Source: Escallonia rubra
Lineage: Eukaryota; Streptophyta; Magnoliopsida; Escalloniales; Escalloniaceae
Assembly: GCA_033065855.1 (NCBI GenBank)
Contig: JAVXUO010000768.1
Coordinates: forward strand, 1-64,000
DNA: 64,000 bases
Direction of reading: 5' to 3'
Position 1 is the first letter of the stretch. Each line of letters opens with the position of its first letter. The notes beneath the pieces are model-generated. The model was not told the DNA's origin. It searched no databases and was given only the letters and a program-made list of their open reading frames with translations. The translations under genes and the position numbers were made by a program. Below, piece after piece: positions 13,051-37,560 of this stretch.

Positions 13051-13099
13051 GATGATGTACACTCCGGAGAGTGGGTTGAAGCATGTTCCATGACCAAGG

Positions 13100-13795: not shown

Positions 13796-13799
13796 GCCG

Positions 13800-14981: not shown

Positions 14982-17530
14982 GGGGTGGCAATGGGCGAGT
15001 TGGATTGGGTTGGGTCAAAGAATTATGGGTCATATATGGGTTGAGTCAGGTACGGGTTGGGTCAGAAACGGGTCCAGCATGCCATGGGTTGGTGCGGGTT
15101 GGGTAAAAAATGGGTAAGTCATTCAGACCCGACCCGACCCATTTTTTTTTTTTGGTCTTCTCTTTTTTTTTCCCTGTGCAATTGATACTGTTATCATGAA
15201 GGCATTTCCATCCCATTATATTACAAATTAACAAAAAACTAATTAACACCTATTGCAAACTAAAACTATTAAAAAGGAAAACATTACTTTTACATAGTTA
15301 AAGTTTCATGAAACCCAAAACACATGACAATCTTTACATTTGCAACCATACAACTACATATTTCAATGAATCTGCATGGCCACTGCAGAAGAAATCTGAG
15401 CAGGAGAAATGTCTCCCAAACAACACAATATATATAAATAGTCCTAGGAAAAATTAAAAGAGTTAAACCCAACTAATCCCTATCTGAATCCTATCAACTT
15501 ATTCAAAAGCTTCCATCTGTTCCCCTGTCTACTCATCAGTACCCTGTAGGATACTTGCAAGTGCCAAATCCTGCAAAGACAAGCCCAAACTTAGTCCAAG
15601 ATGAAGCAGCTAAAGGAATTTGAAATGAACAATTCAGTGCTCGCAAATACAACCTCCATGGCCACTGATAAAGCAGATGTATCTCAATGAATCTCATAGA
15701 TGCTACTGAATTGCAATTGCTGAAAACGTTTCTTTACATAATGCCAAGTTATCCAGGTTGTGGTTCCCCTGCTTCTTGTTGTTCCCAATCCATATCTAAA
15801 AGTGTCAAGCTAAAAATTTCAAACAAAAGAAAGAAAGTAAAACTGCCTCTTAACATTGATGATTGCCATCGTTATCATAGCATCAAACCAAAAGTTTCCT
15901 AATTATCCTAGAAAGAAAGTACAAAGGCGGAGTATATACGATGTCTAACGTGCTTCAGACACGATTTCTTAAAAATTTGCAAAAAGTTATGTGATGAAGG
16001 TAATTTATTTCAAGTCAAGTTAAGCAGGCAAGAGAACTCTGAGATTTGTGTCCCCAGAGCTCACAATTGCTTTATAAGATACCTGATGATTGCCAGCAGC
16101 ACCTTGGATCTCGCACAGTTCTAGAGGCAATGATTCATAAGCTCTGTTTATTTCTAAACAATCTCGCACAGCCTTCTCTTTTCTACATGAGGGCAATTCT
16201 AGCAACAGCATTAGTCCAAACACTTTAGTAATAAGAACAACTGTGAACTGATGCATTGGAATGAACACTGCTGAATGTGAAGGAATCACTGAAAAATAAG
16301 TGAAAGCACCCATATTATGTCTTCAGAATGTGAAGGAATCACTGAAAAAGGACATTAGAGAATACCAAGTATGAGTTTTTGGGGCTGTAGAGAGGGCAAA
16401 CAACTTATTTTCTATTCCAACTGCATAATGAAATATAAAAGTTAAAGTCAGTCATCGTTATCATAGCATCAAACTGAAAGTTTCAATGATTAATAACATG
16501 TAACGATAAGTTTATCAAACTAAAAAAGGTAGTACCCTGATCCTTTTTTAGGAAGAGGAAGAAGCACTAGAATCTAAAGAAGAAGATCTAGGGAAAGGGG
16601 GAAGACTATAGAGATCAAACTCCAAATATGCCTTGTTGTCATCTTTGGTATCACCTGCATTATTAATAACATTGATTAACAACAACAATTACCAAGATTG
16701 CATGACTATAATACAACTTAGGGACATACTACCTTGTGACCCGAAAAGCCAATCATTGGTGCAAATCAAAGCTTGAACATTTTCCGGGGTAAGTGAAGAG
16801 CGATATTGATCTAAGACCCTCTTTCTAGTGCTGAAAGCTGCTTCAGAGGCCACGGTAGAGATATGGATGCTCAAGACGTCTCGAGCTATCCGTGCAAGCT
16901 CTAGAAAACGGTAATCAACCGATCGCCAATACTTCAAAATGTCCAAAGGCAGCTTCCAATCAAGACAAGACTCCTCTAAGTACATATCCAACTGCGACTT
17001 CTTCACCCCGACCGCAACTTCATTCTCAAAATCGTCAAAATTGGCCATTTCATCGTTACGTCCACTACCAATAACATGAGACATACTTGAACCGGATGCT
17101 TGAACATCACTTGTCGAGGGCATAGAATAAAGGCTAACATACTCATCATATATATCTTTAAGATCATCAAGGATAGCCTTAATCTTACTTTTACCGACTG
17201 TAGACCCATAAAGCTTTTTTAGAGAGAACTCAATCAGCTTCATTTTATACCTGGGGTCAAAAACTGCAGCAATCGAGAGTACTTTTCGCGAAGAACTCAA
17301 GTACCTCAGGACTATTCCTGAAGGGCATTGACTCCGTAAATGGCGTCTCATATTAGACGTGCCATGAGAACTACCAGCAATGTAAACTTTTTGACAATAC
17401 TTGCACTCTGACACAACTTTACCCTCATACGTTGTACTCTTGATATAAAAACTCCATACTCCTGACTTCGTTGTTCCGTGAGCTTCTTCGAAGTCCAAAG
17501 TATCCTCGAACGTAGTCGACATTCTTTCAA
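14982..17530 (-). mobile_element. hAT (Ac-type) element relic; left terminus and transposase visible, right terminus not found
   Basis: The sequence TAGGGGTGGCAATGGGC at 14982 matches the typical terminus of plant Ac-type hAT elements. It is followed by the usual (a/g)ggttgggtc-rich subterminal DNA to about 15140. A hAT transposase-derived gene reads toward it on the minus strand (16548-17522). I could not find a matching inverted terminus to the right, nor an 8-bp target duplication, so the right end is lost or lies somewhere in 17.5-18.9 kb. The interval 15140-16547 shows no other gene. Confidence 0.6.
16548..17522 (-). CDS. Internally deleted hAT transposase: BED zinc finger joined to C-terminal dimerisation domain
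   Basis: Exon 1 runs 17522-16733 and exon 2 runs 16654-16548, joined at GT...AG sites. Together they give an open frame of about 298 aa. Residues about 20-70 form a BED-type zinc finger (ECKYCQKVYIAG... then HLRSQC). This is followed almost at once by the late part of the family (VLSIAAVFDPRYKMKLIEF) and the hAT dimerisation region (LDMYLEE... DVLSIHISTVASEAAFSTRK). Relatives of the RICESLEEPER type are usually about 600-700 aa, so the middle, including most of the RNase H-like catalytic core, is missing. The deletion kept the frame. The product could bind DNA and dimerise but not transpose. Whether it is expressed is unknown. Confidence 0.75.
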
Positions 17531-18960
17531 AAACAGATTTATGTTCTCTGTTAAATTTGCCTTCTTATCAAAGCTTAAAAGTTTATAATTAACAACCTAC
17601 AAGCTGGCAGAGATTTAATCAAGCATTGCACATCCCTCAATCAAAGAGCTACTACCAAATAACTTTTGCTTCAAATCAGTTAATTTGCTTGATCAACTTT
17701 TCTATATTTTGAGGCATGCTAATGTATCTGTCCTAGTGCATATAACTTTAAAGTATTTAATAGATTTTCCCCTCTAAATTTATAGCATCCTTACTATATA
17801 CAGGTTTCGAGAATGCAGCAATAGCATGTTGTGGGACTTGAAGGTTTGAGATGAGTTACATGTGTGACAAATTTAACCCTTTTGAGATGAGTTACAAGTA
17901 AGCATATCTGTCATATAGCACAAAGTTAACACTCCTTAAACACCCTAACACAAATAAACACACATATTAACACACTTACATACACAATTATACACACATA
18001 CACACACCTGAATGTATACATTCACTATCAACACCAAGAACACACACTGTCACCCACTCCTATCTCTCGGCAGTACACACAAAATCACTTCATTTCTCTT
18101 CTAAACACACCTGATCACCACAAATGCACATTATACACAATTAATCCCACATGAATCCCAAACCCGAACTCACACACACTGCAACCACTCCAAAAACCCA
18201 CTGCACAACTACGATTCCTCTCCCTCACCCTTATAAGCATACAACCCATCAAAGATTAACTTAACTACTAATATTACACAAAACATAACCTCAATCCCAC
18301 ATCTGAAGCGTCAAATAATACGCAGAAAATACTTTCCTTACACAGCCATGTTCATGCCTCAAGTACGGACACACTCCACAGTGGTTTAAAACACACACTA
18401 AATCCACAAACACACGCTAGGACACATACACTAGAGATTTGGAAGCTCACCTCTGGAAAATGGACTTTATTCTCTCTTCTTTCTCCCTATTTTTCTACCT
18501 CCCTGCGCCTACTTTGTTTTCCCTTTTTCTTCACCGTTTCTTTGTCTATTTCTTTTTTTTCCTCTTCCATTACTTGAATTTCCTTTTTACCTAGTTATAC
18601 ATTATTTCATTGTTAAATTAACTTAGTAATCACAATTAAGTAGGAGGTGTCACTATTTAAAGACATGGTTTCCTAAGATTTTTACACCTTTATAAACCTA
18701 GTCGGCTCCCAGTTTCCCAAAATTATAAAATAGGCCCTACACTTTTCTTATTTACAAAATGGCCCACATAACTTTTAAAAATTATAATTTAACCCCAAAA
18801 TCCCTTTAATATTTCATAGTTCAATAATATTTGAGTAGTGCGCAATATTATTGCTCTATTATTATTTTTCAGACACCCGATAGTTATTATCATTTCAGAA
18901 GAAAAAATATTTCTAACACGCGAAAAATTCGGGGTATTGCAGTTTTGAACGTGTTTGAGG
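17531..18960. other. Non-coding, AC-rich then AT-rich repeat-like sequence
   Basis: An AC-rich tract (about 17930-18430) resembles the one left of the hAT terminus at 14850-14970, as if the hAT relic split one older sequence. The stretch ends near gaaaaattcggggtattgca, a style common at the ends of plant LTR-type repeats. I could not identify paired ends. Confidence 0.35.
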
Positions 18961-19426
18961 AGTCTTTTGAAGGGGTTTAAATTCTGAAAAAATTGGTTCT
19001 TTCATCTCCTCTTTAGGATAAGATAGTTAAATGTGTTTAATGGGTTTCTAAGTTGTGGATAGGGTTGCTTGTTATATACGCGTAATACTTTAATATTAAT
19101 TATTTGTCAAATTGTTGAATACTTGTTCATAAGTGAATCTAAACATAATTAACATATTGGAGATTATGGAAGACGCGAAATAGGTTATAATTCATTTGAA
19201 TTAGGAATTTATGTTAAATTAGATATGGTTAGAACAAGATTTTGAACATGTTTGCTAAGTTACATAAATGAAGCTCATTTATCGAATATAAATGATTTTT
19301 ATTACATGTTCAAGATGTTATTAAGATGATATTTCATGATAAAAATGACTAAATATTTGATAGTTAAGTGTTATGGTATAAGTACATGCAGATTACAATA
19401 ACTACATCTATGAAATGATTTGTTTG

Positions 19427-19483
<57 letters not shown>

Positions 19484-20472
19484 TATTGTGTTTCCCCTTT
19501 CAAATGTTTGGGTGTTGATTTGATTGTGTTTGAGTAGCGGTGCACCGTTTGAGCCGAATAATTGTAACTTTGACTGCTACCCGAGGTAATATCGGTGTTC
19601 ACAGTTACTTTGGCTTTGGCTGAGGAAAAGGTTGTGAAATTACATCCCGGGCGTGATAATGTAAGGGTGGACTATTGATGGGGTTGAATTCAGAAATGAT
19701 AAACTCTTGTAGTACTCAACTTAGTGTGAAAATTTGATATGTGTAATGTGCACATGTAGAACTGCTTAATGTAAATGACTTGCAATAGCATGCATATCCA
19801 TATTCATGAGTTAAAAGTTACATTTAAATGTCTTTGATTATTTTATTGAGCCAGTGGGGCTGACAGGTTTTTATCCATATATTTTATATTAAAGAGTTGG
19901 TCCCTTAAAAGAAAAGAAAAATGTGTGAGGCATTGTGAGAAGACGGGCAAGGGGACATTTGTACATTTGTGAATTAAATTGTACTTGATATAGAATAGTT
20001 TGTCAACTCTGAGATCTGGCAGAGAGCTTGCTAGGTGTGTTTTGTAAAAGTAAACTCTTTAATGTTATATGATATGGTATAATTATCAAGTAAGTTTGAA
20101 TGAGTTATATTATCAAAATGATTTGATTAGCCACAGTGTCGTAATACTCAAGTCGGGTTAACATAACCCTAAGTTAGGACGTTACAGAATCCATCACCCA
20201 TATTATGGAAGTAATCATTTGATATCAATCGAGTGGATCAAATCTTTGATCATCTCTTGAAGATTAAATTCATTCAGCATCAAGATCCTCTTAGGGCTCT
20301 TAAAGATAAGAAGGCTAAATTTTGTAAGTGGCACAACACTATTAATCATAATAGTAATTGAGCCCAATAAAATAATTAACCCAATAGAGGGAAGGGTGAA
20401 TAGGATTTTAAGACTACTTTAAAAGATTAACAAGTAATCATAACCGACTTTGAGAAACTAGGATGAACACTT
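18961..20472. other. Intergenic repeat-like sequence, no gene
   Basis: AT-rich DNA holding a (CA)n(TA)n microsatellite (19428-19483). The end of one repeat may be aagttaggacgttaca near 20170. From about 20390 the words agagggaagggtgaatagg mark the start of another plant repeat type that seems to continue, interrupted, at 34795-35710. Confidence 0.35.
19428..19483. repeat. (CA)n(TA)n microsatellite
   Basis: About 34 bp of CA followed by about 22 bp of TA. Confidence 0.95.
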
Positions 20473-20960
20473 GGCTCTGTTTGATTTTATTTTCGTTTTT
20501 AGCTTTTTTTTTCAGTTTTGTAAACTGAAGAAAAAAAATGCGTTTGACACATAATTTTCGATTTTTTTTCCTTCAGTTTTGAAAACCAAATTTTAAACAG
20601 GGCTGTTTCTTAAAACTCTCATTTAGGAGTTTTGAGTTTTTATTTTTGGTTATTATTTTGAGACCACCACCACCACCCTCCTCCCACCGCCACAGCCACC
20701 GGGCATCGCCTGCCGTCGGAAACCACCGGAGACCACTGCCGGTGGGCCACAGTCGGCCACTGCTGGGGACCGCCGCCGGCCGGCCACCCTTACGCCCCAC
20801 CACCGCCGCCACAAACCACCACCAAAGAAAAAACTCAAAATAAAAACTGGGTAATCAAACACCCATTGTTTTTGTAAAAAATAAAAACTAAACTGGTTTT
20901 TGTTTTTTTTTGTTTTGGAAACCGAAAACCAGAATTGGAAGTGATTTTAAACGCTACCTT
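20473..20960. mobile_element. Probable MITE with imperfect terminal inverted repeats
   Basis: The ends ggctctgtttgattttat and, inverted, ggtagcgtttaaaatcactt match loosely. The arms are T-rich on the left and A/T-rich inverted on the right. The centre (about 20660-20820) is a GC-rich CCACC-type block without a convincing gene. No clear target duplication was found, so the superfamily is open (hAT-like or Harbinger-like). Confidence 0.5.
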
Positions 20961-21339
20961 AGATTCTCAAATATCAAACCTCAAACATTATATCTCAAAT
21001 GAGCAAGCTAACTAATCTCAACACAAATATAACGCAATAATGTAAAGAGAGAAGGGTTTAGAGATACTTGATACTTAGTATTTAGGTGGTTCGGCTCAAA
21101 GTACCCTTAAGCCTATTCAAGGAAGTCCCTTAAAAGGCCCTACCACTAGAATAATCTTTCTTAACGGTTAAGATTGAACCTCTTACAACCCCTTAATACT
21201 ATACCCACATAAAGAACAAGCTTTGACAATCCCAAAGTTCCCAAGCTTGACAACCCCAAATTTTGATATAAGAAACTTTAGATGAAATGTGTACAAAGAA
21301 TCACTCTCAAGTAGTTGATGAGTACATGTTTAAGCTCTA
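20961..21339. other. Flank of CACTA 2, repeat-like, no gene
   Basis: Contains wording such as atttaggtggttcggctcaa found in plant repeats. Together with 34795-35710 it appears to be one older repeat into which CACTA 2 inserted. Confidence 0.4.
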
Positions 21340-21640
21340 CACTACAAGAAAAATGCCCTATAGCAGCGCTCTATAGCAGCGGCCAAAAAAACCGTTGGCA
21401 TATATTATATATAGCAGCGGTTTATAGCAGCGGAATTAGATGCCGCTGGTATAGACGGTTTACAGCAGCGGCTACTTTTCACCGCTGCCATAGCTCGTAA
21501 AAAAATTGCCCACAGCTGCCGCGCGGCTGAAACTTTACGCTCCAAAAACCCGCGAAATCTCCGCGCCAATTGAAATCCAATAGAAGCGGATAAGAAAAGC
21601 TAGGCAGCGGATATACCGCTGCCATAGACACTCCCACTTT
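21340..21640. repeat. Left terminus and subterminal TAGCAGCGG repeats of CACTA 2
   Basis: After the terminal CACTACAAGAAAAA, the motif (TA)TAGCAGCGG and its inverse occur about six to eight times, including 21373, 21413 and 21426. These are the presumed binding sites of the TNPA-like protein. Confidence 0.9.
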
Positions 21641-22857
21641 TTTTTTTCATTCCCTTTATCCCACGAGCTCACGTAATCACTTACCTTCCCCAATCGACTC
21701 TGGTTATGTTCTTCTATCTGATGCAAATACAAACACAAACACACATCAGAAGCATATACACAAACAAATCGACTCTCGATCTCCCTCTCTCCGTTCTACA
21801 ATCAAACGCGGGATCTCCCTCTCTCCGTTCTACAATCAGACGCAAACAATCAAACGCGGGATCTCACTCTCTCCGTTCTACAATCAGACGCAAACAATCA
21901 AACGCAAACACAATCGCAGGACTCAAACAATCAGGCGCAAAAGTAATCAGGTTACTTCAAACTCAGATTTCGATCTCCCTCTCTCAATTCTATCCCTCGA
22001 TCTCCCTATCTCTAAAGAGCACACACATAACCAGTGGCGGAGGCAGCGGGGGTCACAGAGGGGCACGTGCCCACCTGCTGCCTCCTCCTCCCTCGTTTAG
22101 ACTACCCAGCAATGGTGCCCGGCCTTGCCGCCGACATGGAATAATCCACCGGTCACTGCATCCACCTTCACTTGCAGGTTCGGCGCAGTCCATCCCCGCT
22201 GCTGAATACACCATCGGCGGCCAGCAAACTCCAAATCTGATCTCTCTATCTCCATTCATCTCAACCCATTATCCAATCTTTTCGTGTCCACCAATGATTT
22301 CCTTATCTTCCCTTCCTTTGTTTTTCAGCTTTTCCAGATGTATGTATATAGATTTCGAAAAGTGGAGATAACAGAGAAGAAAGACCCAGATAGATTTAAG
22401 ATGGGTTACCCCTCCTTTGGTTTGTTTCATTGTCAAATTGACTATGATGTTAATGCTATAATTAGAAGTTAATTGAGGCATCTTATTTCCCACTTGTCCA
22501 GCTGGTATTATGTGAGGCATGCCCTGCCAAGGCATGCACAAATTTAAGCGTTACTTTGTAATCACTTGTGCAAGTTTTAATTTTACTGCCGCTAGCAAGC
22601 ATTGTATTTCGGGTAGTTAAGAGGTTGATCCAGCTAACTCCTTCCACGCATAAGGTATTCCTTCTTTCTGTTTCTATATATTGTGGTTCATCTTTACCTC
22701 TTAGTTGTTCTAGATATAGTCTGACACCAAGGCAGTATTAGTAATTCTAATGGGTGATGGGTGCCTTGACTCGTGGCGTACAAGATATCTATCAGATCTC
22801 TATCATCGTTTCCTAGCCAACATTCTCTTAGTAATGCTACTCTTTTGAATATAGGCA
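21641..22857 (+). other. Leader region of CACTA 2 with short tandem repeats
   Basis: Between about 21775 and 21905 the phrase tctccctctctccgttctac recurs in a short array. At about 22035 the words ccagtggcggaggcag resemble a hAT-type terminus, possibly a small insertion remnant. An open frame at 21706-22371 has a repeat-like composition and no known family. This may be transcribed leader of the transposase gene. Confidence 0.4.
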
Positions 22858-22904
22858 TTAAAGTGTGTTGTTACATGGACCCATCAACAAAATCAGTGGA
22901 GAGT

Positions 22905-23747
22905 GACCCTGTTTGCAAATGTAATTTTTGAGTTCATTCAATGTAATAGCAAAACGTGACAGATTATATCTAGTGGGGAACTGGGGAGGCTTGCTCCTCT
23001 TCCAGAGCAAATGAGCATCTGATAGAGATTCAAACCCTTTTCCTTTCCTGGAGCAGTCTCCAGTTACATAGTGCATGCTCTCATCCCACTTCCCAAACAG
23101 AGTTGCCAGAGTTTTTCCATTGCTTCCTTGTACAATGCCTTGTACCTGCAAAATATCACGTTCATTGAACTTAAACAGGTGTCCCTGTAAAGTGTGGGCA
23201 GTTAGTTTTCTTTTGTTATTTTACTCATATGCAACACAACCGCGCTGACACATACACTCACATACGGGGAGGGAGGGAGGGAGAGAGAGAGAGAGAGAGA
23301 GAGAAGGGGGGGGAGAGAGACTCACCTGGTGAGGATTTCGGTCTATAATGGACTGCTCCTTAAATTTCAGCTTACACGAATATTTACAGTTCCCCTGACT
23401 ACGCATTGTGCCATAGTGGTCGCAATAGAGTTTTCCCAAAATAAGATTGTATATCGATGTGGTTACCTGACATAAAAAGTCTTATCATTTTTTTTTCTTC
23501 TTGATAAGTAAAGAGAGAGATAGGATAACCATATCAACCAAACCATACATATAAATTATTGTAACCATCACGGTAATACCTTACTCCATTGAAGAACTTC
23601 TCCATCATCAAATTCCAGGGTCAAAACACCAACAGGATCCAGCTGAATAGAACGACCCCAAAATTTGCTTCTCAGATTGATATTTCCCCAAAATCTCCAG
23701 CCAGTACCCTCACAGTGGCATGCAACAATCATTGGGTGATGGCTAAC
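22905..23747 (-). pseudogene. Captured fragment of an oxysterol-binding-protein-related (ORP1-like) gene, three exons with introns
   Basis: Three consecutive exons read on the minus strand, opposite to the transposon genes. Exon A is 23580-23747 ([19 protein letters not shown]...), exon B is 23326-23466 ([19 protein letters not shown]), and exon C starts at 23145 ([15 protein letters not shown]... FAITLNEL) and loses similarity near 22905. GT/AG splice sites are preserved. The VSHHP motif is the hallmark of OSBP-related lipid-transfer proteins, which move sterols and phosphoinositides at membrane contact sites. Exons before and after are absent, so this is a captured piece, not a gene. Intron retention shows it was copied from DNA rather than from mRNA. 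Confidence 0.9.
23271..23322. repeat. (GGGA)n(GA)n microsatellite in the captured ORP intron
   Basis: Purine-rich simple repeat just downstream of the donor of ORP exon B. Confidence 0.9.
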
Positions 23748-24336
23748 CTGATTAAAAGTAACACTTAAGTTTTTAGTTTACATAACAAGTAAATTTAGCC
23801 AAAAAAAAAAGCAAAATGGAAAAAGGAAAATAAGCATTAGCTGCTCCTAACAATCAATCCAGACCATCTCTACACGTACACTACTCATTCATACCACCGG
23901 GATTGAGTATTTCCTTTTCAGGTAAGCAACCTTTGAAGTCAGTCTTGTAAAAGAGGACCAAATTTCATGTAGCGTTTCATGTGCTATTCCAAAAGGACCG
24001 ATAATCGATTTCTGTTTTCACTCCTCTTTTACTTCAGATAGAAAGACCCAAAAGTTCCAGTCCTGACATTCCTACATGACAATCTATGCCTTAAGATGCC
24101 TTATGTTTATAATTTTTAGAAATGCCAAGAAATATTTAAGGAGTACTAGCAAAATTCAAACAACAAATTTACAAAAATATACGTAAAGATTGCTGTGTAA
24201 TGTTTGCTGGGCCGTGCCTGGCGTCGGGAGGAACCAACACTTGCATAAAGTGCATTGCCTTCAAAACTGAACTAGAGTGGCCGGTTGACCAATTTAATCA
24301 TGAACTGGTCACTCCACTGGTGTGTGTGTGTGTGTG

Positions 24337-25197
24337 TGGAAAGAGTACTGAAAATGAGACTCTTTAATCAGGAGACGATTATATTGCCTACTTAAATTGT
24401 TTTTTTACTAATCGGCTGTGACTAGAAAGTCTGGGAGTTGTGTGCCCTAATTGCACTATAGGAGAGTCAAAATTTAGAGCTCAAGAAGGGAAAATGTGTC
24501 CTTGTGATGAGTTTAGATGCAACTCTGTTAAGCTGCTTATATCGATCCTCTGGCATCATGAGGTTATGTACATTTTTGCGGGCACTTCTTTACTGCCGCT
24601 TGTCGTTCAAATCAGAACAATTCTTTTGCAGGAACTTGCTGAGATGATATTCCAATCTGCAATGTAGAGCAGGGAGTTTTGAACGTGATTGAAAGGTCAT
24701 CTGCATATTGCTTCTTCTGAGGAATAATAGTCATAGGATCAACAGTTGCACCAACTTGAGTTATTCCTAAAAATAGATGTTGTACTTGGCCAGCTATTAG
24801 TGTTGTTCCTAAAAATAAAGGCTTTCTATTGTGTAGTCGGCTATTAATCTTTTCACTTGCATTTCGAAGTGTTCATGCGTCTGCTGAAAAACTATGAAGA
24901 ACCTCTATACCAAATATGTGAAGTCAATTTTTTCAGTCCGAGCAACAAACACAGACATGTAAAAATTTCAGTTTGTACGCGTTAGCTTTCGTTTTGCTAA
25001 AGAACTCATGCAAAATGGGGCAGTACAATCCTCAATCTAGGTATAAGAAAAGCATTACCGAATAAATTGCTGGCCTCTAGAATAAATTTAGACTCAATTT
25101 AGATTTCCTAGTCACAGCTGATTAGAAAAAAAAACAATTTAAGTAGGCAATATAATCGTCTCCTGATTAAAGAGTCTCATTTTCAGTACTCTTTCCA
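24337..25197. mobile_element. Foldback-like insert with about 90-bp inverted repeats inside CACTA 2
   Basis: The arm at 24337-24425 (tggaaagagtactgaaaatg... gtgactag) is the near-perfect inverse of 25108-25197. About 680 bp lies between them, with no recognised gene. A GT microsatellite abuts the left arm. Flanking duplications are not clear. It may be a small non-autonomous transposon or an inverted duplication. Confidence 0.75.
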
Positions 25198-25433
25198 CAT
25201 CTCCTTTGAGGGTTTGAAAGGAAATGCTTGATTTTTTTAGGTTAACAACTGATTACACATTATTTGGTTGTTTCTAGTTTCTTAGATTTTTGCACATCAA
25301 TTGTTGTTGTTGTCATATTGGAGATTTCTCATATTAGGCCATAGTTTATTGTCATCATGATATCTTTGGAATTACATTTCTCTTATTGTTGTTTGTGTTT
25401 CTGCTTTGGCTTTCTTTATACAAGAAAGATAAT

Positions 25434-28400
25434 ATGGACAAGGTATGGATGACGCACTCTAGGGAAACTGATACTTATTGTGCTGGAGTCGACATGTTTT
25501 TGGATTTTGCATTTGCAAATACGGCAACAATCTTTAGAGAGATTTTGTGTCCGTGTAGAGATTGCGTTAATAGCATGTTCCGCACGCGTGAAACTGTGCA
25601 AGAACATTTAATAATAAGGGGATTTATGAGCAATTATACAGTATGGACAGTTCATGGGGAAGGCTCGTCTTCTCGTTCAAATCGCATGGAAAATGATGTA
25701 GAGCTCAACATTGGTGGTGGTGGAGCTATGCATGAAATGGTAAATGACATATTTACCAGCCGATCGGAGGAACCTTGTGTTAAAGTTGCAAACTTCTATA
25801 AATACATGAGCGATGCAGATCGACCATTATATTCGGGGTGCAAGACTGAGACAAAGCTATCATTTATTGTGTGGTTATTTAATCTGAAATGCACCAGTAA
25901 ATGGACAGACAAGTCCTTTGATTTGCTACTTGGTAAGTTAAAAGAAATAATTCCTAACGGTGAGACGTTGCCTGCCAACTTTTATGAAACAAAAAAGATG
26001 ATTGGTGACTTGGGATTCAGCTACGATAAGATTGACGCTTGTCCCAATGATTGTATATTGTATTGGAAGGAAGATAGCACATTGAATTCGTGCAGGGTGT
26101 GCAAGAAATCAAGGTGGAGGATGGTTCAAAGGGAGGCAGAAAAGGAAGGAGAATCTAGACCTTGTAAAGAAGGAAAAAAAATAGCTGTCAAGCAACTGCG
26201 TCATTTTCCTTTGATACCAAGACTGCAAAGGCTATATATGTCACCAAAGACGGCTGAATTAATGATATGGCATGATAAAAAACGTCGAAAAGACGAAGGA
26301 CAACGCCATCCTGCTGACTCAGAAGCTTGGAAACACTTTGATCGCTTAAATCCAGACTTTGCTTCAGACCCTCGTAATATAAGACTCGGGTTATCAACTG
26401 ATGGTATGGATCCTTTTCGCCACGGAGCAAGTCATAGCATATGGCCAGTTACCGTGGTTATTTATAACTTGCCTCCGGGAATGTGTATGCAACAACGATT
26501 TTTCATTATGCCTTTGCTAATACCTGGTCCAACTTCCCCTGGTAATGATATTGATGTGTATCTTAGGCCGTTAATTGAGGAGCTCAAGGCGTTGTTCGAT
26601 GGTGTTGAAACTTATGACGCCTTCACCAAAACTAACTTCAAGATGCGTGCAATGCTCATGTGGACTATTAGTGACTTCCCAGCTTATGCAATGTTGGCAG
26701 GTTATAGCACGAAGGGCAAGTTGGCGTGTCCAGTTTGTCAAGAAGACACTCGATCTTGTAGATTACGTGGTAAGCAATGTTATATGGCACACCGATCTTT
26801 TCTAGATCCAGATCACATATATAGACTCGACAAAAAAAAATTCAACGGGCTATGTGAGTATAGAGAACGTCCGGTTATTCGTTCGGGATTTGATGTGCTT
26901 GAAATGGTGAGCGACATCAATGTTACGTTTGGAAAGGCTAGTAAAGCTACTGTGCCTAAGGATCCTAACCATAACTGGAGGAAAAAAAGTATTTTTTTTG
27001 AGTTGCCATATTGGAGGTTTCTCATCTTACGCCATAATTTGGACGTAATGCACATTGAGAAGAATTTCTGTGATAATCTGCTTGGGACATTGTTGGGTAT
27101 CAAAGGGAAGACAAAGGATACTCTTAAAGCTCGCTTAGACATGCAAGATATGAACATACGACAAGAACTGCATCCAGTTGAAGTTGGTGTAGGCAAGTAT
27201 AAGTTGCCTGCTGCACGTTTCACAATGTCTAAGGACGAGAAAAAGGATTTTCTCCATGTGTTGAAGAATGTCAAGGTTCCTGATGGCTACTCGTCTAATA
27301 TTAGCCGTTGCGTACTTGAAAAAGATGGCAAGATTTCAGGTCTTAAGAGTCATGATTGCCATATCCTAATGCATCAAATTCTTCCGATAGCAATAAGAGG
27401 GGTTTTGCCAGAGGATGTTTGCTCTGCTGTAGTTGACATATGTCAATTCTTTAAAGAATTGTGCTCTAAAAATTACCGAGTAGAAGACTTTGAACGACTT
27501 AATAGGAAGATTGTATTGACACTTTGTCATCTTGAGATGATATTTCCACAGGCTTTCTTCGATATAATGGTCCATTTGCCTGTTCATCTTGCCGAGGAGG
27601 CAAGGATCGCTGGACCTGTACAGTATCGCCAAATGTATCCATTTGAAAGGTAAAATACTTTTCATTATTTTTTATTTGATATTATATGACACTTAGAGGC
27701 TAATGTAGTTTATATTACATGATTATAGATACATGTTTAAGTTAAAAGGCTATATTCGATGCAAGAGCCGCCCCGAAGGGTCGATTGCAGAAGGGTTATT
27801 AGCGGAAGAGTGTGTAAGATTTTGCTCAATGTACTTAGAAGGTTCTCATCCAGCATGGACTCGACCGGGAAGGAATGAAGATGGATATGTTGAAGAAGTG
27901 ACCAGAAGTTTGTACGTTTTTTGCTGCAAAGGTAGATTTTTAGGTACTCCTTCTATTAGTCATCTAGATGTGAAGGATATAGAGATGGCACATCGCTACG
28001 TGTTGTTTAACTGTGATGAGTTAGAAGAGTATCGAAGGTAAGCATTTTTCTCAAAGTATTGTTAATATATTTATTTTTGGCATATGGATAATATGTTAAT
28101 ATACCATGTCATTGCAGCCTATGTCAAAGTGTGTGCACAATGATGCTAGGAAGACGTAGAAAGAAACCTACGCCAAGGGAAGTTGATAACTGCTTAAAAA
28201 ATGAGTTTGCCAAATGGTTTAGTGGTCACGTGAGTTCTCTTTATGCATTCAAGATTAGTTTTCTGAATTTGCATTTATGAGTTATTTCTTATTACTTGAT
28301 TTGCAATTGCACAGGTAAAAACTTTGAGAGCTGGGGTTTCAAAGGAAATAATTGCCCTTGCACGTGGTCCAAATGATATTGTGAAGAGAGGCAATGGCTA

Positions 28401-29250
28401 TTTGATAAACGGATATAGGTTTCACACTGAGCGCCTCGAGCTAAAAAGAAAAACACAAAATAGCGGAGTGTTTGTTTCTGCTAGTACACGTGGTTATTCA
28501 TCGTCTAGAGATAGAAATCCTGCAGAAGACTTATTAGAGTACTTTGGCGTTTTGGAAGATGTAATTGAGCTAGATTATTTTGGAGCTGGAAAGGTCGTAC
28601 TTTTTAAATGCAAATGGTACGACACTGTGAATCGAAATACAGGGATCAAAACAGATCCATATGGATTTACACTTGTTAACTCGAAGAGATTTATTTATAA
28701 AGAGGAACCATTTGTGTTGGCCTCTCAAGTGGAGCAGCTGTTCTTTGTGGATCATCCAAGGGACAGTGGTTGGCGTGTGGTTATTCGAACAAGGCCAAGA
28801 GACTTTTGTGAAGATGTGGAAGAGGAAGACAATGAACACGAGGAGTTATCATCCCTTTCCTCAAGTGAGTCACATGTTGTTCAAGATGCAGAAAATATAA
28901 TAGGTGACATCACTTGGGCCAGAAATGACATTGAAGCAGAAATAGTCGAGGAACGTCCAGCAAAAAGGTCCAAAAACGCACAAGCAAGGGAGCAAGCTAT
29001 AGATAGAGGGACTAAAAGGCATAGACTTGACACTTCTCTAGAAAGTGGTGGGGCTGAAAAGCGAAGACTTGAAACCTTTGTAGATGACGAGGAGGAGGAA
29101 GAGGAGGAGGGAGATGAGGACGAGGACGATGAGGACGAGGACGATGAAGAGGACGAGGATGAGGAAAAGGAGGAAGTGGCAGAGGAAGATGAAGATGAAA
29201 ATGAAAATGAAAATGAAGAGGCAGAGAGTGATTCTATGAGTAGTGATTGA
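25434..29250 (+). CDS. TNP2-like CACTA transposase (Transposase_21), intact, about 1,190 aa
   Basis: Four exons, 25434-27649, 27729-28037, 28118-28229 and 28315-29250, join at GT/AG sites into one open frame of 3,573 nt. I chose the ATG at 25434 (MDKVWMTHSR) because family members start this way; an upstream in-frame ATG at 25386 adds 16 hydrophobic residues. Domains: Transpos_assoc zinc-binding N-terminus (about 1-75, CPCRDCVNSMF), Transposase_21 core (about 200-480; LGLSTDGMDPF, PGPTSPGNDIDVYLRPLIEE), DUF4218 (about 540-840, through MYPFERYMFKLKG), DUF4216 (about 900-1050; GYLINGYRFHT). The protein ends in a long Asp/Glu tract. It should cut and join the element ends together with the TNPA-like protein. 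No stop or frameshift was seen. Acidic tails are common in this family. Confidence 0.93.
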
Positions 29251-29449
29251 TTTGTTTTTCTGCTTGCTATTTATTTCTGTGTACTATCTATTTCTGAAGA
29301 AAACTTCTAAATGAATCATATCTTTGTTTGTTCGTTTATTTTGTTTCTTGTAGTCTCTTAATTAAAGGTTAACTTCAATTTTTCTTTCAGTCATTATCTA
29401 TTCCAGTTTTGGTTATGTTTATACGTATATTTGTGTCTATAGTGTTTCC

Positions 29450-32400
29450 ATGGCTAATAGACGGCAGCTTCGAGCACGAGTTGGTTGCAGCACACAAGTG
29501 CCATCACGAGATTCTCCCCAGATCAACGAGCAGATCAACGAGCAGCACAATGTCGAGGTACAAACTGATGCCAATGTCGCTGCGATTACCGATACACCCA
29601 ACATCGAGGATGAGGCGCTTGATGCTGAGATGACCAGTCATCTTGAGGGGTCACAAAGTGACCCACCATCCACAGGTAAAGCTGAGTTTTGAGAAGGAAA
29701 AATCTGATTTTATTCTATCTATATTGTCATAATTGGTAGTCCATGTTTGGGGTGATTGGATTGCTATCTATATTGTCATAAGAAGGTAATTACACAGCAA
29801 TAGTGAGTTTGAGCTAGCGCTAGATCAAATACGTTGGGCAATACCAAGAGGCTCGCATCAAGTAGTGAATAATCAGATTTCTTGAACTCTCTTCTAATTA
29901 TGATTTGGAAATTGTTTTCATTTTCCTTTGGTTATCTGATTATGCGGTGACAGATTTGTGTATCTTGTTTATCAGTGATTTTGTGTCTACCTTTAGAGTA
30001 TAGTACCCTGTGGAGTCGCCCTTGGAAAGAAACACGTAAGTTACAGAATTAACGGGTAACAACAAGCAATTGGGTTAAGATAATATTGTGTCTCTTTTCC
30101 CATAACCTGTGTGTTCATGCAGTAGATATAAGCTTCCTTTGCAAAGAATCTTGCCCATATGAGTATTTCAACAAACATCCAAATGACAATTGACAACAGA
30201 GAACTAGAGAAAAACCCATTGGGGAACTTCCAAGTGGGAGAATTCACAAGTTTCCGAAAAGAAACTTGTGAATTCTCCCAGTAATCAAACCCAGCCTTTG
30301 CAAGGATTTGATTAGTGGGTTGTTGGCTGTATTTGGTGTCAGGTAGGTTCTAATACCCATCATACGTAATTAAGATTTGTTGCCTGCTAGTTAAACATAT
30401 TAATTATATGTGCTTGTAAGCAGCATAATTAGATTTTCTTTGCAGAAAATGTAAAGCTTGGTGCAATATCGGAAAACTAGTTTCAAACAATAAAATTTTA
30501 CTTTAGGGTACCCTTGTATATCTCTTCTTAATCATATCCCCACAGGAGTACTACCATTACACTAATAATCCCGGAGCATACTTAGCTTTGTATTCTGACC
30601 AAAGCTGATCAACTGGCTTCCCTAACAACTGAACAAAGTAATCTTCACTATAAGCATATCTCATTTTGTTGTTCAGTGCAGCTGTAAACCCAGTCATGAG
30701 GCTATCACAATATTCTAAAAATCGAGCTGTGACTTCATATCCCTCATCCCACCTATCACCTTGCCCAGGTAGAGCAAAGCCAGTCCCGTTTAGTTTAGCT
30801 CTTAGGACCATGTAGTCGGCAATTTCTTCAGTCAGCGGACCCGGGGCTGTAAAGTTCCCTGACCATTGAAATACATGAGTCATCTCATGGTACATTAGAG
30901 CCGTGAACGCCGTCCTGAGTTCATCACCTTGCATGCCTTGCAAGTACACTGCACTAATATTAATCAAGTTGTTGGAAATGTCAACAAATCCTTCAAGTAC
31001 ACTGCACTAAACTGTAGGGTGTGATGTATTATCTTGTTTATAATCCTCAGCACAATGTTCAATGCCTCCTCATTCTTGTACTTTTAAGTCCTGCATGCCA
31101 TGCTAGTAGCTTAAACTGAATCAGTCCCCTGTTTCATTTTTCTCTGTTCATGAACTGCAACCCCCAGTTTGTTGCTGATTATTTGATCTCACAGGATGTT
31201 GAAGCTTATCAATCATATGTACCTACGCTGGGTCGACCTTTAAACTTCTGAAGACACACACACGATGAAAACTAGTTTATTATCATTTCTCTTTCTATGC
31301 ATTTGAACCCAGAAATGAAATCTATATCTCAACCATCCTATTCGTATTTTAGTATACTAATTGCCATAGCTATCCTGTGAGAACTCAGTTATGATGTTAA
31401 ATTACCAGCACCTCTGAAAATTTAAACTTTAAGAGAATGGCCTAACAGAGTCTGCCATGCTTAAGAATGTTTGTGACCTTATGCCTCAGCTGTTATACTC
31501 ACTTATGCTTTGCTCATCAACAAGATCTCATGCTGCCAGAAAACCTGATTGGACTACAAATTGTTTTATTGATTTCATGGGACATGTTCTTTTCTTGCAG
31601 GTTCTAGTTCATCAAAAAAGCGAGGCCCCACTAGAGGGGCTGAAATATGGGTGAGGGAGACGCAAAAATATGTAGGGTATGACAATTGGGGTCATGCTAA
31701 TACCGGTGCATTTCATGAGCTTGGTACCTTTATAGGTTGTGTGGCACGTTCGAGCAAGCTGTTACCTATTACTTACACCAAGTGGGCTGATGTTCCAGAG
31801 GAGGACAAAGAAAAGGCTTGGGAGGAGATCGAGGTATTATTAAGTTATGCATTTCCTAAATTTATCCGAAGCTATTTGAAATTTTTTGATGCTATTGTAC
31901 TCGTGGTCACAGAAGAGATTTACAACGGATCATCCTCTTGCTAAAACTGCTATAATGCGCACTCTTAACACCCGTTGGAAAGATTGGAAGTGCTCGCTAA
32001 AAAGGAAATTCTTCAAGCCGGATGATATACCAGCTTCAAATGCACTTGTTGCAACTGAAAAAAGGGCAGATTGGCTGCAGTGGCAAACCTTGGCGAGCTA
32101 TTGGCAGCGTGAAGAAGTTATAGTATCCACTAAACTTACATTTATTAACATAATTCATGTTTTTATTTGATACCTACTAATTAATGTGCTTTAAATTGCA
32201 GAAGGAGGCAAAGTTAAACAGCAAAAACGCGACGAGCATCAATGCAATTCCACACACGCTAGGCCGAACATCCAGTTCGCGGAAGGAGGAAGAATATGTA
32301 CGAACTTTTACTACCTTGTTATACATTAGTATACTCCTTTTTGGGACTAAATCTTAATGTAGTCATATTTTATTGTGGTTTTGAAGTTTGAGACACATAA

Positions 32401-34099
32401 TGTTAGGCCAGGTAGGGCAACAATGTGGGTTGTGAGTCGCAAATCAAAGAAACTTAAAGGAGATGTCCTCCCGCAAGCGCGTAATAAGGCTGTAAGTTGC
32501 TTCACTTGCTTTTCATTTGTTGCATTCCCATCTTTATCTTTCGGTCTCAATCTTTTATTGATAATGACTTCGTTTTTGTTTATCTTTTAGGATGATATTG
32601 AAAGACTCCAACAGGAGGCCTCATTGCCCGAGGATGATAGCGGTCCAAATGATATTCTTTCCAAGGTTATGGGTAAGGACCGGCATGGTAGGGTGAGGGC
32701 AATGGGGCCCATGGCCAATATCTCAAACACATGGGGTTCTTCCAACAATGTGAAAATGCAAGAACAACTTTGTTCTCTTAAGGAGCAGCTGGCCGGAATG
32801 AATGAAATGAAAGCACGAATGGCGAAAATGGAAGAGGCTCTTGAACGACTTACTGGGAACAGTTTCACAGACCATGCTACTAGTTCTAGTCAGGTACACT
32901 CACACAACATAGTGATTTACTATGTGAATTCCAACTGCATCATAGTGATTGCATATGGATAATGACTTACTGGGAACAGTTTCACAGACCATGCTACTAG
33001 TTCTAGTCAGGTACACTCACACAACATAGTGATTTACTATGTGAATTCCAACTGCATCATAGTGATTGCATATGGATATTTTCTCTTCTTAAACCTTTAA
33101 GACAGTCATCTCCCTCCCCCTTTTGAGAAAAATGCAGCAGATTACTGTGTGCTCTTTTTGATGAGGAGTAATGCTAGACATTGAATTTCTGCGTCAATTA
33201 AACTATTGATTGTTATGCATGCGATACAACCACGTGTGACGGCATCCAATGCACAAAAGGGTAGACTAAATTGAGATGTAAAACAGGTCAATATTGTGCT
33301 TTGCTTCGCCCCTGAGAGTCAGCAAGACAGGTTGGAAATGAATTGGGTGATCTGCATTGTCAAAGCACCCATGCATGTGTGCTTCTTTTACTAAATGCTC
33401 TGGTCCTGGGTGTCTTCCAGTGGTGTTGTAGTCTTAGAAAAATTCCCAAGCAGTTGAACTACATGGTTATGCTTCACCATTTTGGCCATCTCTTGTTCTT
33501 CTTGAAAATCTTTCTCCTTTCATGCCTCCTAAAGAATTGGAGATGAGTTGTGTGATTTTTCCTTGATCAAGGACACCCACAGATTTATTCCTTGGCTTGG
33601 TGCTCTAGTCTCATTGCTGAAATACTCATAAGATATTGTATGCATAAATTAGTCACCTAGCTAGCTACATGCATATATACTGCATATCATCTTGTATGCA
33701 TTGACTTGTTCCCCCTTGAACGATTCTTGTAACGGTTATGCTATGGTCCAAAAGCATATTCTACCTGTCAATATAGTATTAGTTAAGCGCATATGATGAG
33801 GCATGAGCATGGTCTAATGCTTCACAAGGGGCTCAACCATGGTATTTTCAACAAGCGCTCGATTATGTTCACACTCTTACCAATAATCTCTAACAAGACT
33901 TGTTCCGGTCTCTTTTCTGCTGGGTGTTTGAATTTTATGATCATTCACTTTGAGAAACTTAGTTTTTACATTTTTATTAACTTAAGAAAGTTAAACGAAC
34001 TTCATGGGAGTAACTGAGTTGTACACTAATTGATGCTTGATTATGTCACAGGCTAATGTGGAGGCAAATGCAAATAGATCGAGTAATGGTAGTGACTGA
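29450..34099 (+). CDS. TNPA-like protein of CACTA 2 (Transposase_24 / Ptta family), intact, about 404 aa
   Basis: I assembled seven exons: 29450-29675, 31601-31833, 31913-32116, 32202-32297, 32387-32491, 32591-32893 and 34052-34099. All phases agree (1,215 nt, stop at 34097-34099). Family landmarks are KKRGPTRG at the start of exon 2, WLQWQTLASYW in exon 3, INAIPHTLGRTS in exon 4 and MGKDRHGRVRAMG in exon 6, followed by a heptad-like coiled coil (LKEQLAGMNEMKARMAKMEE). Such proteins bind subterminal repeats and help the TNP2 product. The donor after exon 3 (GAA/GTTATA) is weak, so that junction is the least certain. Intron 1 (1.9 kb) contains the copied basic secretory protein fragment; intron 6 contains the second copy of a 117-bp duplication that starts in exon 6. 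Confidence 0.82.
30235..30280. repeat. 46-bp near-perfect palindrome (20-bp stem, 6-nt loop)
   Basis: The arm TGGGAGAATTCACAAGTTTC at 30235-30254 is followed by the loop CGAAAA and its exact inverse at 30261-30280. It lies in TNPA intron 1, left of the basic secretory protein fragment. Confidence 0.9.
30557..31010 (-). pseudogene. Captured basic secretory protein (BSP, PF04450) gene fragment
   Basis: The minus-strand frame (about 136 aa, 30557-30967) matches the C-terminal two thirds of plant basic secretory proteins. It contains ISAVYLQGMQGDE, the zinc-metalloprotease motif HEMTHVFQW (HExxH), and then EEIADYMVLRA, GQGDRWDEGYEVTARFLEYC and LLGKPVDQLWSEYKAKY. The family is secreted, often induced by pathogens, and usually about 220-240 aa with a signal peptide. 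The N-terminus and signal peptide are missing. A short repeat of agtgcagtgtacttgaagg near 30985-31005 shows where the homology breaks down. It lies antisense inside the TNPA intron, so it was copied into the element and is probably not expressed as protein. Confidence 0.9.
32847..33077. repeat. 117-bp direct tandem duplication across the end of TNPA exon 6
   Basis: The segment from gacttactgggaacagtttc at 32847 is repeated from 32964 with almost no change, including the donor site. The duplicate adds a second exon end plus donor within the intron, an alternative splice option. Confidence 0.95.
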
Positions 34100-34409
34100 T
34101 TGATGTTGCAAATTGCGCTGCGTTTCATCTTTTGAACAGCTATATTTGTAGGCCTTTTGCCCCCTTAGAAGGTGTTTCTAGTGAAAATTTTCATAGTTAA
34201 TGTAAAGTTTACAGCAACTTGACCTTTCTTTTGTTTGTAAATATACAATGTCTTATGCAATGACATTTGAGTGCATGGCTTTGATATTTTTTTTGGCTTG
34301 TTTATAAAGTTGAGTAAGTACGTTACTTTTTTTAACAGGTTGGATGAGTTGGCTACATATCTTTAATTGAGTCGATATGTATTCTACAATTAATTAAAAA
34401 AAATTGCAT

Positions 34410-34791
34410 ATCTTTAGCAGCGGTCAATGTGCGTTGCCATAAGTTTTTCATTATGTAAAAAAAAAAAAAAAAGAATCATATAAAAATGTTACAGCAGCGT
34501 GGCAATCCGCTGCCATAATTTCAAATTTAAATTCAGGTGACCACCTATAGCAGCGGTCGCAGACTCTTGCCATAGATTGGCCGCTGCCATAGGAGGCCTT
34601 TAAAGCGCCAATTTTGGAATCAATGTACCAGCGGTTGACCGCTGCAGTAAAGGTGTCTGACCACTGCTGTATGTCTATGGCAGCGAGGCCTATAGCAGTG
34701 GCCGGGGGCCGGTGGGAAAGCCTTTCGCAGTGGATGTTCAATCTATAGCAGCGGTTTTTGACCGCCGCCATAGCCACTTTTTCTTGTAGTG
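34410..34791. repeat. Right subterminal repeats and terminus of CACTA 2
   Basis: Copies of TAGCAGCGG, TATAGCAGCGGT and the inverse ccgctgc(c/t)at occur about ten times, ending at ctttttcttgtagtg (34777-34791). Confidence 0.92.
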
Positions 34792-34794
34792 CTA

Positions 34795-35739
34795 GCATAA
34801 TAGATGAGTGTATTGATGATCGACTTATGAACGTGTCTATCTCTAAAATGTAAACTCACAATGAATGCTCTCTTGAATTTGACGTGAAAACAATGAAAAC
34901 AGAGAGCTTGAAGAATTGCTTTAAGCTTAGAGTATTTGCAGGATAATAGGGCTTTGAATGCAACGGATGAATCGAAACTATGCCCAAAATCAATTTATGT
35001 ATGTGTAGGAATTAATATGACCGTTTGGAAATAGGTAGGGCATTAAGTGCGCCAAACGGTGAAGCAGTCAATGCACCATTATAGTCGACTGTATTCCCAA
35101 AGTAGCCTTTGGAAATTCAAAATTTCCAATTGCAGTTGAATGTATTCCAATGCAGTCAACTGTAATAGGCTGCTGGAAATCATTGCGGTTGACTGCATTC
35201 AATGCAGTCAACTGTAACAGCTAACTGCAAACTTGCAGTTGACTACATTCCAATGTAATCCACTGTATTCCTTCAAATGCAGTTTTCTCTATTTTGAAAG
35301 TATGAAAAATTATATGCATGCAAGGGACGCAGTCGATTGTAACAGCCTACTGTCAAAACTTGTAGTCGACTGCATTGTAGTCCACTGTATTCATTGGAAT
35401 GCAATTTTTTCTATTTTGAAAGTATGACAAGTTTTATGCATGTACGAAAAACCTATGGGCAATTTCTAGGTCACAGTCATCGATACGATCAACTCTCTTT
35501 GTCTAATTACAAAGTAAAGGAATAAAGCACTTACAGTTAAATTGAATTATTCCATCTTTAAAGCATTCTGCTAAATATCTTTGATCAATATTTTGCTCGT
35601 CTAATTGCCTGTTGCATAAGCGTGAGATTGTATCTAACGCTTCATTAACTCAATGCATGTTAGACAACATAATCGTCAATGTTGGTTATCATCAAAATCG
35701 AATATAATCATAGGTTAAATAACTATAGAGCTAATAACA
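34795..35739. other. Flank of CACTA 2: repeat with (cagt(c/t)gactg) palindromes, no gene
   Basis: From about 35040 to 35420 the words gcagt(c/t)(a/g)actg(c/t)a recur in imperfect direct and inverted copies. The sequence reads on from 21336 across the transposon and ends in wording (ggttatcatcaaaatcg, near 35690) typical of one plant repeat type. Confidence 0.5.
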
Positions 35740-36160
35740 TTAATAATTGTGTTGTTTTTTAGAATGCAGTGCGGGATCAGATCGAGGCAGGACTGCTAAA
35801 GTTTGTTGATTAGGACAAGGAGACGACGGAAGTCGACAACGACCCTTTTCAGAGATGGTGATAGATGTTAAAGACAGGAAGCCATTAAAAAGGAGCATCA
35901 GTAGCAAAAAGGCAAAGGAAAAGATTGAATGGGCTGATGAAGAGTTCAATTCCAACATGGAAAGGTGTATTAGTTGCGACAAAAAATTAAAAGAGAAGAT
36001 CATATGGGATGATGAGAACTCCAGTGCCAGCAAGGATAGTTTGTTGCTGAAACTTAGAAACTCTATCTCTAAAATTGGGCCGGATGGAGAACCAGTTTGT
36101 CAAAACTGTGATTCCTCAAGTGAGTGGTCTAAAAGAATGTTGGGAAAATAAAAAAATGTT
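35740..36160 (+). other. Short retroelement-like remnant and an unidentified open frame
   Basis: A stretch at about 35762-35860 resembles a small piece of a plant Ty3/gypsy-type polyprotein region; it is an old, broken remnant without visible ends. Overlapping it, an open frame of about 98 aa at 35855-36151 is rich in Lys, Ser and Asp, has CISC and CQNC pairs, and matches no family I recognise. Confidence 0.35.
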
Positions 36161-37069
36161 TTAAAATTTGGCCTGGTTAGGCATACAGCTCCATTGTCTG
36201 CCGTTACATAAAGCCTGGTTAGGTATTTGCCTAGTCAACTTCTCCACTGTCCAGGCGTCCGCCTTGTCAGATGCCCAATCGCCTAGTCGTGTGCCACAAT
36301 TGCCTATCCCTGCCTAGCTTAACACCTCAAGGCCTTGACGTTCACCAAGTCAAACTCGCGCCATTTAGGCATCTACCCAAATAGCTAAGTAATCGCCTAA
36401 TCCAACATCTTCTTTTTCTTTTGTATTGTCTTTTAGGAATTAATTGGTTCATGTGGCGTCGAAGAGCAAGACCCAACAGCCAAAGAAGACAACACCCCAA
36501 TATCATCTGACTTCTCTTGATAGGCCCATAATCGTATATCATTTCTTGGCCACAATCTGGCATGACCTCCCCTCATATGATTGCTTTATCTAGTCGTACC
36601 AAAATAAGGATGTGGGCCTTGACGCGAGTTTGAAACTTTGCGAAGGTTTAAACCTTGATAAAGATCCCAGTGAACTGAATGGGAGTTCAGATTCGAATAT
36701 CGATAAATGCTTGAGACTTGGTTTAGGTTTAGTATTCGAATCGGGAGGATCTTGGTTTGGGGCGGCCAGAGTCCGACCTAGTCGTTTATGTCTTTCATCC
36801 AGGGTTAGAAAATTATCCTTTCACCAAGACTTTAGGTTGGTACCATTGAACTGGTTCATAAAAGAGTTGAACCGGCCTTTTTTTGGCCTTTCTATTCAAG
36901 GTTTCATTTATGAAGGGCGGCATTTTTAGTTGCAATAGCAGTTTCCCCCGCCCTTTTGGCTCGGTTCGCTCTCTGAACAATTGTGTTCATAAGGCTCAGC
37001 AGTCGCCAGTGCTACAGCATTGCCATCAATTTGTTTGCTTCCTTCACAGCAACAAGAAAGTTTACCCTT
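36161..37069. other. Intergenic, repeat-like
   Basis: Includes a stretch with repeated gcctagtc/gcctggttagg words (about 36170-36330). Open frames here have no recognisable family. Confidence 0.35.
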
Positions 37070-37560
37070 TTTAATGAACTTCCTTATCAGAGAAAATTTT
37101 TAACAAATTGAACAAGTCCTTCTGCTGTTTTATTGACATCCCCAGTTGTCTCTCCAATAGGGTTTTTCCTGTGGCACGAGTAGGATCGAGAGCCACGGGA
37201 TGAGTGTGATATCCCGAGGTCCTTCGAATAGGGGGTACCATAGGTGCCACCCTTGGGACGGCCGGAGTCGAACGACATCCCGAGGCCCCTAGGGCTGGTG
37301 ACATTGCCTTTAAAATGACATGACGAACAAAGTGTTCCGAGGCTTCTGGGATGGGTGATGCTATCCTTGAGAAGACAAAACACACAAAGCGTCACGAGTT
37401 CTCTGGGACTGGTGATGCCACCCTAAAAAAGACAGGATGAACAAAGCGCCCCAAGGCCTCTCGGGTGGGTGCTTTGGGAAAGGCGTCTTTCCAAAAGGTT
37501 GGATGGCTGATCTCTAGTGACGAAGGCCTTTTAATTATCATAACATACTTTGGTCGAGTT
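37070..37560. repeat. Imperfect tandem repeat, about 60-bp unit
   Basis: Units resembling gggatgggtgatgctatcct plus gacgaacaaagtg recur from about 37200 to 37480 (three to four diverged copies). No gene. Confidence 0.55.

Follow-up and report, generated by a model that had tools for sequence, protein, structure and literature searches.

The 64-kb window analysed here, a stretch of contig C1937 from Escallonia rubra, contains at positions 21340-34791 a CACTA (En/Spm) element of 13,452 bp. We consider it highly probable that this is a structurally complete and potentially autonomous element which also acts as a carrier of gene fragments, gained from the host by microhomology-guided template switching and then spread. 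Two fragments of host genes, one encoding an oxysterol-binding protein (ORP) and the other a plant basic secretory protease (BSP), have been captured by the element and lie antisense to its TNP2 and TNPA genes. A preliminary description of this DNA, which presented the element as a complete CACTA still encoding both of its proteins, overlooked this cargo, which is the more informative feature.

The structural hallmarks of the CACTA superfamily are found: terminal inverted repeats, a 3-bp target duplication, subterminal repeats on both sides, a transposase of the TNP2/TNPD type and a second protein of the TNPA/Ptta type. The terminal inverted repeats are 14 bp long and exact, with CACTACAAGAAAAA starting at 21340 and TTTTTCTTGTAGTG ending at 34791, and CTA flanks both ends (Table 1). 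The subterminal motif TAGCAGCGG, when up to one mismatch is allowed, is matched 25 times in the window compared with 5.79 expected, a number reached by none of 100 shuffles, and 16 of the 25 matches fall in the two end regions in both orientations (nine on the left and seven on the right). The anatomy given in the preliminary description is in this way confirmed in each of its parts. As for the coding capacity, TNP2 was modelled with four exons and 1,190 aa, which is the approximate length proposed earlier, whereas the seven-exon model of TNPA, running from 29450 to 34099, predicts 406 aa in place of the about 404 first claimed; all introns in both models are GT-AG and internal stops are absent. 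The pieces of TNP2 match the Pfam families Transpos_assoc, Transposase_21 (E 4.1e-86), DUF4218 and DUF4216, and an ancestral CACTA transposase has also been proposed to have four exons in the available portion of one report (PMC4158355). On the spliced TNPA product, Transposase_24 is matched above its curated cut-off (E 4.9e-15, residues 209-330) over a region spanning three predicted exon joins, and the exons taken singly give only a sub-cut-off match to this family. The motifs that we take to hold the candidate catalytic acidic residues of TNP2 start at computed protein positions 321, 413 and 539, and a search of solved structures for a relative of TNP2 exon 1 gave no match at E values up to 1.

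The larger of the two captured fragments (1.26 kb) lies upstream of TNP2, and three of its minus-strand pieces match the Oxysterol_BP family. A donor locus in contig C2385 matches the whole of 22929-24187 at 98.3% identity, introns included, and because these introns were kept, it was genomic DNA that was copied. Copies of the element lacking the ORP fragment (C2799, C2269, C317 and C101) hold just 15 bp in its place, and they share with the donor a 9-bp microhomology, TGAGTTCAT, at the left edge of the fragment, the overlap between donor and acceptor at the right junction being about 1 bp. The whole fragment is also present in C1570 and C2586, and parts of it in C1225 and C1386; C2337, C847 and C180 match the ORP query at positions 57-88 only. 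Plant substitution rates are about 0.7-1.3e-8 per site per year, and at these rates the 1.7% divergence between copy and donor would translate roughly into 0.7-1.2 million years.

The BSP fragment (0.58 kb, PF04450 match at E 1.1e-39) is found in the predicted intron 1 of TNPA, and its donor in C2057 is an open frame for a 233-aa protein. The left junction comprises a 3-bp AAG common to the donor and C880, and the right junction carries an exact 17-nt repeat of a segment within the fragment itself (30941-30957), including about 11 nt of filler (30997-31007) present at the join in neither donor nor acceptor. The same fragment occurs in C1225, C1570, C2269 and C317 and in triplicate in C2799, which makes six elements with that of the window. 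Since it sits in elements free of ORP (C2799, C2269 and C317) and has diverged further from its donor, BSP would most simply have been captured first and ORP afterwards. The place occupied by BSP is variable among copies: C1386 and C2586 hold there a different segment, 95% identical over query positions 9-1026 to C1771, its best match outside these two elements, which in C1386 has frames of at most 92 aa, and C438, C1488, C430 and C880 hold other DNA. The donor is one of three BSP-like matches in C2057:102070-109057, and a further relative is found at C2058. Beside the BSP fragment, positions 30235-30280 form a perfect 20-nt inverted pair with a 6-nt spacer, also matched in C317, C2269 and C2799. 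A literature search gave no paper pairing CACTA with 'basic secretory protein'.

Going by the known functions of the family, cutting at the 14-bp ends would be the task of TNP2, a DDE transposase, and the TAGCAGCGG subterminal repeats would be the binding sites of TNPA; insertion makes a 3-bp duplication, as the observed ends, duplications and empty homologues show. Internal gaps would be repaired by a synthesis that switches to host genes and back with the guidance of microhomology, a route to which the observed donors and junctions point. In this way the BSP fragment would have come to lie between TNP2 and the main part of TNPA, and the ORP fragment, on the simplest reading afterwards, upstream of TNP2. 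Template switching during repair is favoured because of the microhomology, the few acceptor bases replaced, the templated filler and the absence of an exact CACTACAAGAAA end in 3.9 kb and 5.0 kb around the two donors. In this line, one report describes microhomology and gap filling for the Pack-TIR elements of animals (PMC8277862), and another names the mechanism of Rubin and Levy for CACTA capture (PMC8978399), as far as the available parts of both reports go. With ends and coding parts spared, loaded elements may still have transposed and taken their cargo to new loci. Given the orientation of both fragments, any read-through transcripts would be antisense to the two host genes. The loaded elements located elsewhere have duplications of their own (TAA in C1225, TAT in C1570, TTT in C2586, CTC in C2269 and AAA in C2799), and for this reason the simplest view is that capture came first and movement of the cargo followed.

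A search of the genome assembly (566 Mb in 3,222 contigs) for the same ends, as the preliminary description had advised, revealed 110 occurrences (54 + 56) of a 29-base pattern from the ends, two mismatches at most being allowed, some elements matching at both ends, and none of the reversed control. Queries with the two ends (left, 301 bases; right, 401 bases) covered the best 40 of 143 and the best 40 of 155 candidates, respectively, and their counts are therefore lower bounds. Matching 3-bp duplications were found in 14 of the 15 copies with both ends read, ten further copies with a single end being left out of this count, and they comprise twelve different sequences (CTA, AAA, TAA, TTT, GTG, TCG, GTT, CTC, CAT, TAT, TTA and TCT); the mismatched exception is C1386, flanked by ACG and ACA. 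The right end of C317 is without the terminal motif. The shorter relatives foreseen in the preliminary description do exist, as C2337 (4.6 kb) and C101 (7.2 kb) have the same ends and matching duplications. Empty sites with one CTA, which would support activity according to the same source, were also seen: among the best 40 of 2,100 candidates for a 400-base query of joined flanks with one CTA, there are uninterrupted homologues in C840 (97%) and C651 (96%), each over 400 bases. The element thus sits in a dispersed repeat, whose empty state is visible in these close homologues. A second long terminal repeat of the target, sought to date the insertion, was not found when 19001-37455 was compared with the window. 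A 24.3-kb relative, C2799:24155-48428, with a matching AAA duplication, contains TNP2 exon 1 and the BSP fragment three times each, both with a 5,771-bp spacing, which represents either an internal tandem triplication or an effect of assembly.

Judged from the open frames, autonomy of the window element is plausible, and it may be active at present. When the window copy was compared with four others (C2586, C1225, C1386 and C1570), both genes were open in two of the five, the window element and C2586. The latter differs from the former by one 6-bp in-frame gap in TNP2, five substitutions in 3,567 TNP2 coding bases and one in 1,205 aligned TNPA coding bases, TNP2 exon 1 being identical. In C1225 TNP2 is open and TNPA frameshifted, and both genes of C1386 and C1570 are broken under the gene model of the window. 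The preliminary description held such intactness to be unusual among plant CACTA copies, but it is not rare in this genome, where 29 of the 65 TNP2 exon-1 matches listed, from several families, are full length and without a stop; six among the matches listed, window included, are open at 96% identity or more. This survey concerned exon 1 only and scored the best 61 of 3,562 candidates. An open TNP2 exon 1 is common in this genome, and intactness alone is unremarkable. The preliminary description named high identity between copies as a support for activity; TNP2 exon 1 is identical in C2586, and in the end parts the window element differs from the four copies by 1.2-7.2% (5′) and 2.2-3.3% (3′).

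This divergence of the ends also favours another reading of the window copy, complete but dead: an immobile relic once moved by another copy, with frames open by chance, to which we give somewhat less than an even chance and which is compatible with the capture history. A tandem duplication of 117 bp that overlaps a splice site points in the same direction, as do the pN/pS ratios against the four copies (0.39-0.77 for TNP2 and 0-1.01 for TNPA), although these come from few changes and say little. Against it stand the two open genes with every GT-AG site kept, and a coding sequence near-identical to that of an independent copy located elsewhere in the genome. Purifying selection among the close copies was considered and set aside, as changes are too few (2-14 synonymous in TNP2 and 1-3 in TNPA) and the identical introns point to exchange: the core at 25340-28839 shows no differences from C2586, introns included, next to 2.0% in the 5′ part and 3.3% in the 3′ part. 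Exchange among copies is likely because the introns are identical too, unlike what coding selection alone would give.

Several of these data weigh against a potentially autonomous carrier loaded by template switching. Exchange between copies would blur dating, and the divergence of the ends leaves room for an insertion that is not very recent. Exon 2 of TNPA has a stop in two of the five copies (C1386 and C1570), and the donor site of exon 6 is overlapped by the 117-bp duplication, which could disturb splicing. Exons 1 and 7 of TNPA are without homology support, so that 'intron 1' may be intergenic. With regard to capture, C880 is an 85-90% relative and no proven BSP acceptor, and one CACTACAAGAAA lies near the BSP relative in C2058, which is not the donor (85% versus 96%).

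A more far-reaching form of the carrier account can be put forward tentatively, and we find it rather doubtful: a self-sufficient CACTA would use the predicted TNPA intron 1 as an exchangeable cargo dock, where host fragments are loaded, spread and swapped outside the coding exons while the machinery is kept, and might make antisense RNA to the donors. That the fragments are functional, either lowering host-gene expression as antisense ORP and BSP or serving as camouflage against silencing, is improbable; such ideas have been proposed for other CACTAs in the accessible parts of two reports (PMC2528002, PMC8978399), and both fragments are antisense to TNP2 and TNPA and 96-98% identical to their donors, but their absence or replacement in several copies indicates that they are not needed for spread. 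Improbable too, and fitting less well than template switching, is the route through neighbouring elements described in partly available accounts of Pack-CACTA (PMC8903248, PMC13317346), in which two nearby insertions and an aberrant excision retain the chromosomal DNA between them: the CACTACAAGAAA near the C2058 relative speaks for it, but each fragment is surrounded by element sequence that is otherwise uninterrupted, no more than 15 bp of the acceptor gave way to ORP, the joins bear microhomology and a templated filler, and no exact CACTA end occurs in 3.9 kb and 5.0 kb around the two donors.

Table 1. Features of the CACTA element in window coordinates.
Feature	Position	Strand	Remarks
Left target site duplication	21337..21339	.	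CTA, from the sequence; matched on the right
Left terminal inverted repeat	21340..21353	+	CACTACAAGAAAAA
Left subterminal repeats	21361..21624	.	TAGCAGCGG type, both orientations, 9 matches
Captured host ORP gene fragment	22929..24187	-	antisense to TNP2; 98.3% to donor C2385
Microhomology	22929..22937	.	9 bp, TGAGTTCAT; common to donor and copies without the ORP fragment
ORP exon piece	22929..23166	-	PF01237, E 3.4e-11; cut at capture junction
ORP exon piece	23320..23469	-	PF01237, E 4.4e-8
ORP exon piece	23580..23750	-	PF01237, E 1.7e-18
Inverted pair	24335..25199	.	72-bp arms 24335-24406 and 25128-25199, 100% complementary
TNP2 exon 1	25434..27649	+	start codon; Transpos_assoc, Transposase_21, start of DUF4218
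TNP2 exon 2	27729..28037	+	remainder of DUF4218
TNP2 exon 3	28118..28229	+	
TNP2 exon 4	28315..29250	+	DUF4216, acidic tail; stop codon ends here or up to 2 bases further
Predicted TNPA exon 1	29450..29675	+	without independent homology support
Captured host BSP fragment	30418..30996	-	PF04450; antisense, in predicted TNPA intron 1; 96.2% to donor C2057
Repeat at right BSP junction	30994..31010	.	17 nt, exact repeat of 30941-30957
TNPA exon 2	31601..31833	+	
TNPA exon 3	31913..32122	+	start of Transposase_24
TNPA exon 4	32202..32297	+	Transposase_24
TNPA exon 5	32387..32491	+	Transposase_24
TNPA exon 6	32591..32893	+	end of Transposase_24
Tandem duplication	32844..33077	.	117 bp; over end of TNPA exon 6 and its donor site
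Predicted TNPA exon 7	34052..34099	+	stop codon; without independent homology support
Right subterminal repeats	34415..34754	.	both orientations, 7 matches
Right terminal inverted repeat	34778..34791	-	
Right target site duplication	34792..34794	.	CTA

Between the ORP fragment and TNP2 there is an inverted pair whose arms are 721 nt apart; in related copies the arms occur singly or are arranged otherwise. A nested transposon was considered at this place (24335-25199), but no target duplication was recognised and several related copies have single arms, so that no class is given. The rest of the window contains other mobile sequences. On the minus strand we find a second, different CACTA TNP2 gene in pieces at 1499-5265 (Transpos_assoc, Transposase_21, DUF4218 and DUF4216), a piece of a hAT transposase at 16689-17564 with a BED zinc finger, an RNase-H fold and a dimerisation region, and Copia-type retrotransposon frames at 42608-46636, where the frame 44060-46636 matches gag-pre-integrase, integrase and SH3-like domains and a further frame spans 42608-43330. 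A plus-strand frame at 47000-47620 has a reverse-transcriptase-like RVT_3 domain. The GC content of 12001-14000 is 0.645, compared with 0.31-0.48 in other 2-kb steps, and inside this region lies a repetitive alanine/proline-rich frame (12915-13592). No RNA family was matched in the 64-kb window at the gathering threshold.

Elements of this kind are already known, and the following comparisons apply to the available parts of the published accounts. Cactavine-5 of grapevine is similar in having a transposase open reading frame (ORF) together with an antisense host fragment, its cargo being part of the coding sequence and the 3′ untranslated region of a PPR gene, downstream of the transposase and in two copies (PMC2528002); the window element differs from what is described there in its two host genes, located donors, resolved junctions, open models for both transposon genes and a BSP fragment present in six elements. 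In CACTA-like elements of Chenopodium, host fragments are located 5′, ahead of ORF 1, like ORP in the window, but that account places them only there, whereas one of the two described here is found between TNP2 and the main part of TNPA, at a site whose content varies among copies (PMC8978399). The Pack-CACTA elements of Arabidopsis, rice and maize share CACTA ends, host gene fragments and amplification with the element of the window, but they are defined as non-autonomous (PMC8903248). The latter does have host coding DNA between its ends but keeps TNP2 and TNPA open, and for this reason it is not filed as a Pack-CACTA. The soybean Tgmt* is likewise a large, putatively autonomous CACTA with a tnp2 domain, but it measures 20.5 kb and its second domain is TNP1 (pfam03017) instead of the Ptta type (pfam03004) found here, gene fragments in soybean being reported for another element, Tgm-Express1 (PMC2613891). 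Finally, the Tpn1 family of Ipomoea nil, with TpnA1, also has few coding copies, many derivatives and captured host genic regions, but these regions substitute the interior of non-autonomous copies, whereas here they stand beside open transposon genes (PMC5105172).

What the Escallonia element adds is resolution, since donors, acceptors, joins, the likely order of capture and the spread can be followed within a single genome, beside open transposon genes. The available parts of the Pack-CACTA and Tpn1 papers deal with capture in derivatives without transposase genes, so that capture takes place apart from the elements that supply the transposase (PMC8903248, PMC5105172). As one assembly holds the donor, a cargo-free acceptor, loaded copies and open genes, template switching can be tested against capture by neighbouring elements. 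Moreover, the antisense placement of the fragments names two host genes as places in which to seek small RNAs.

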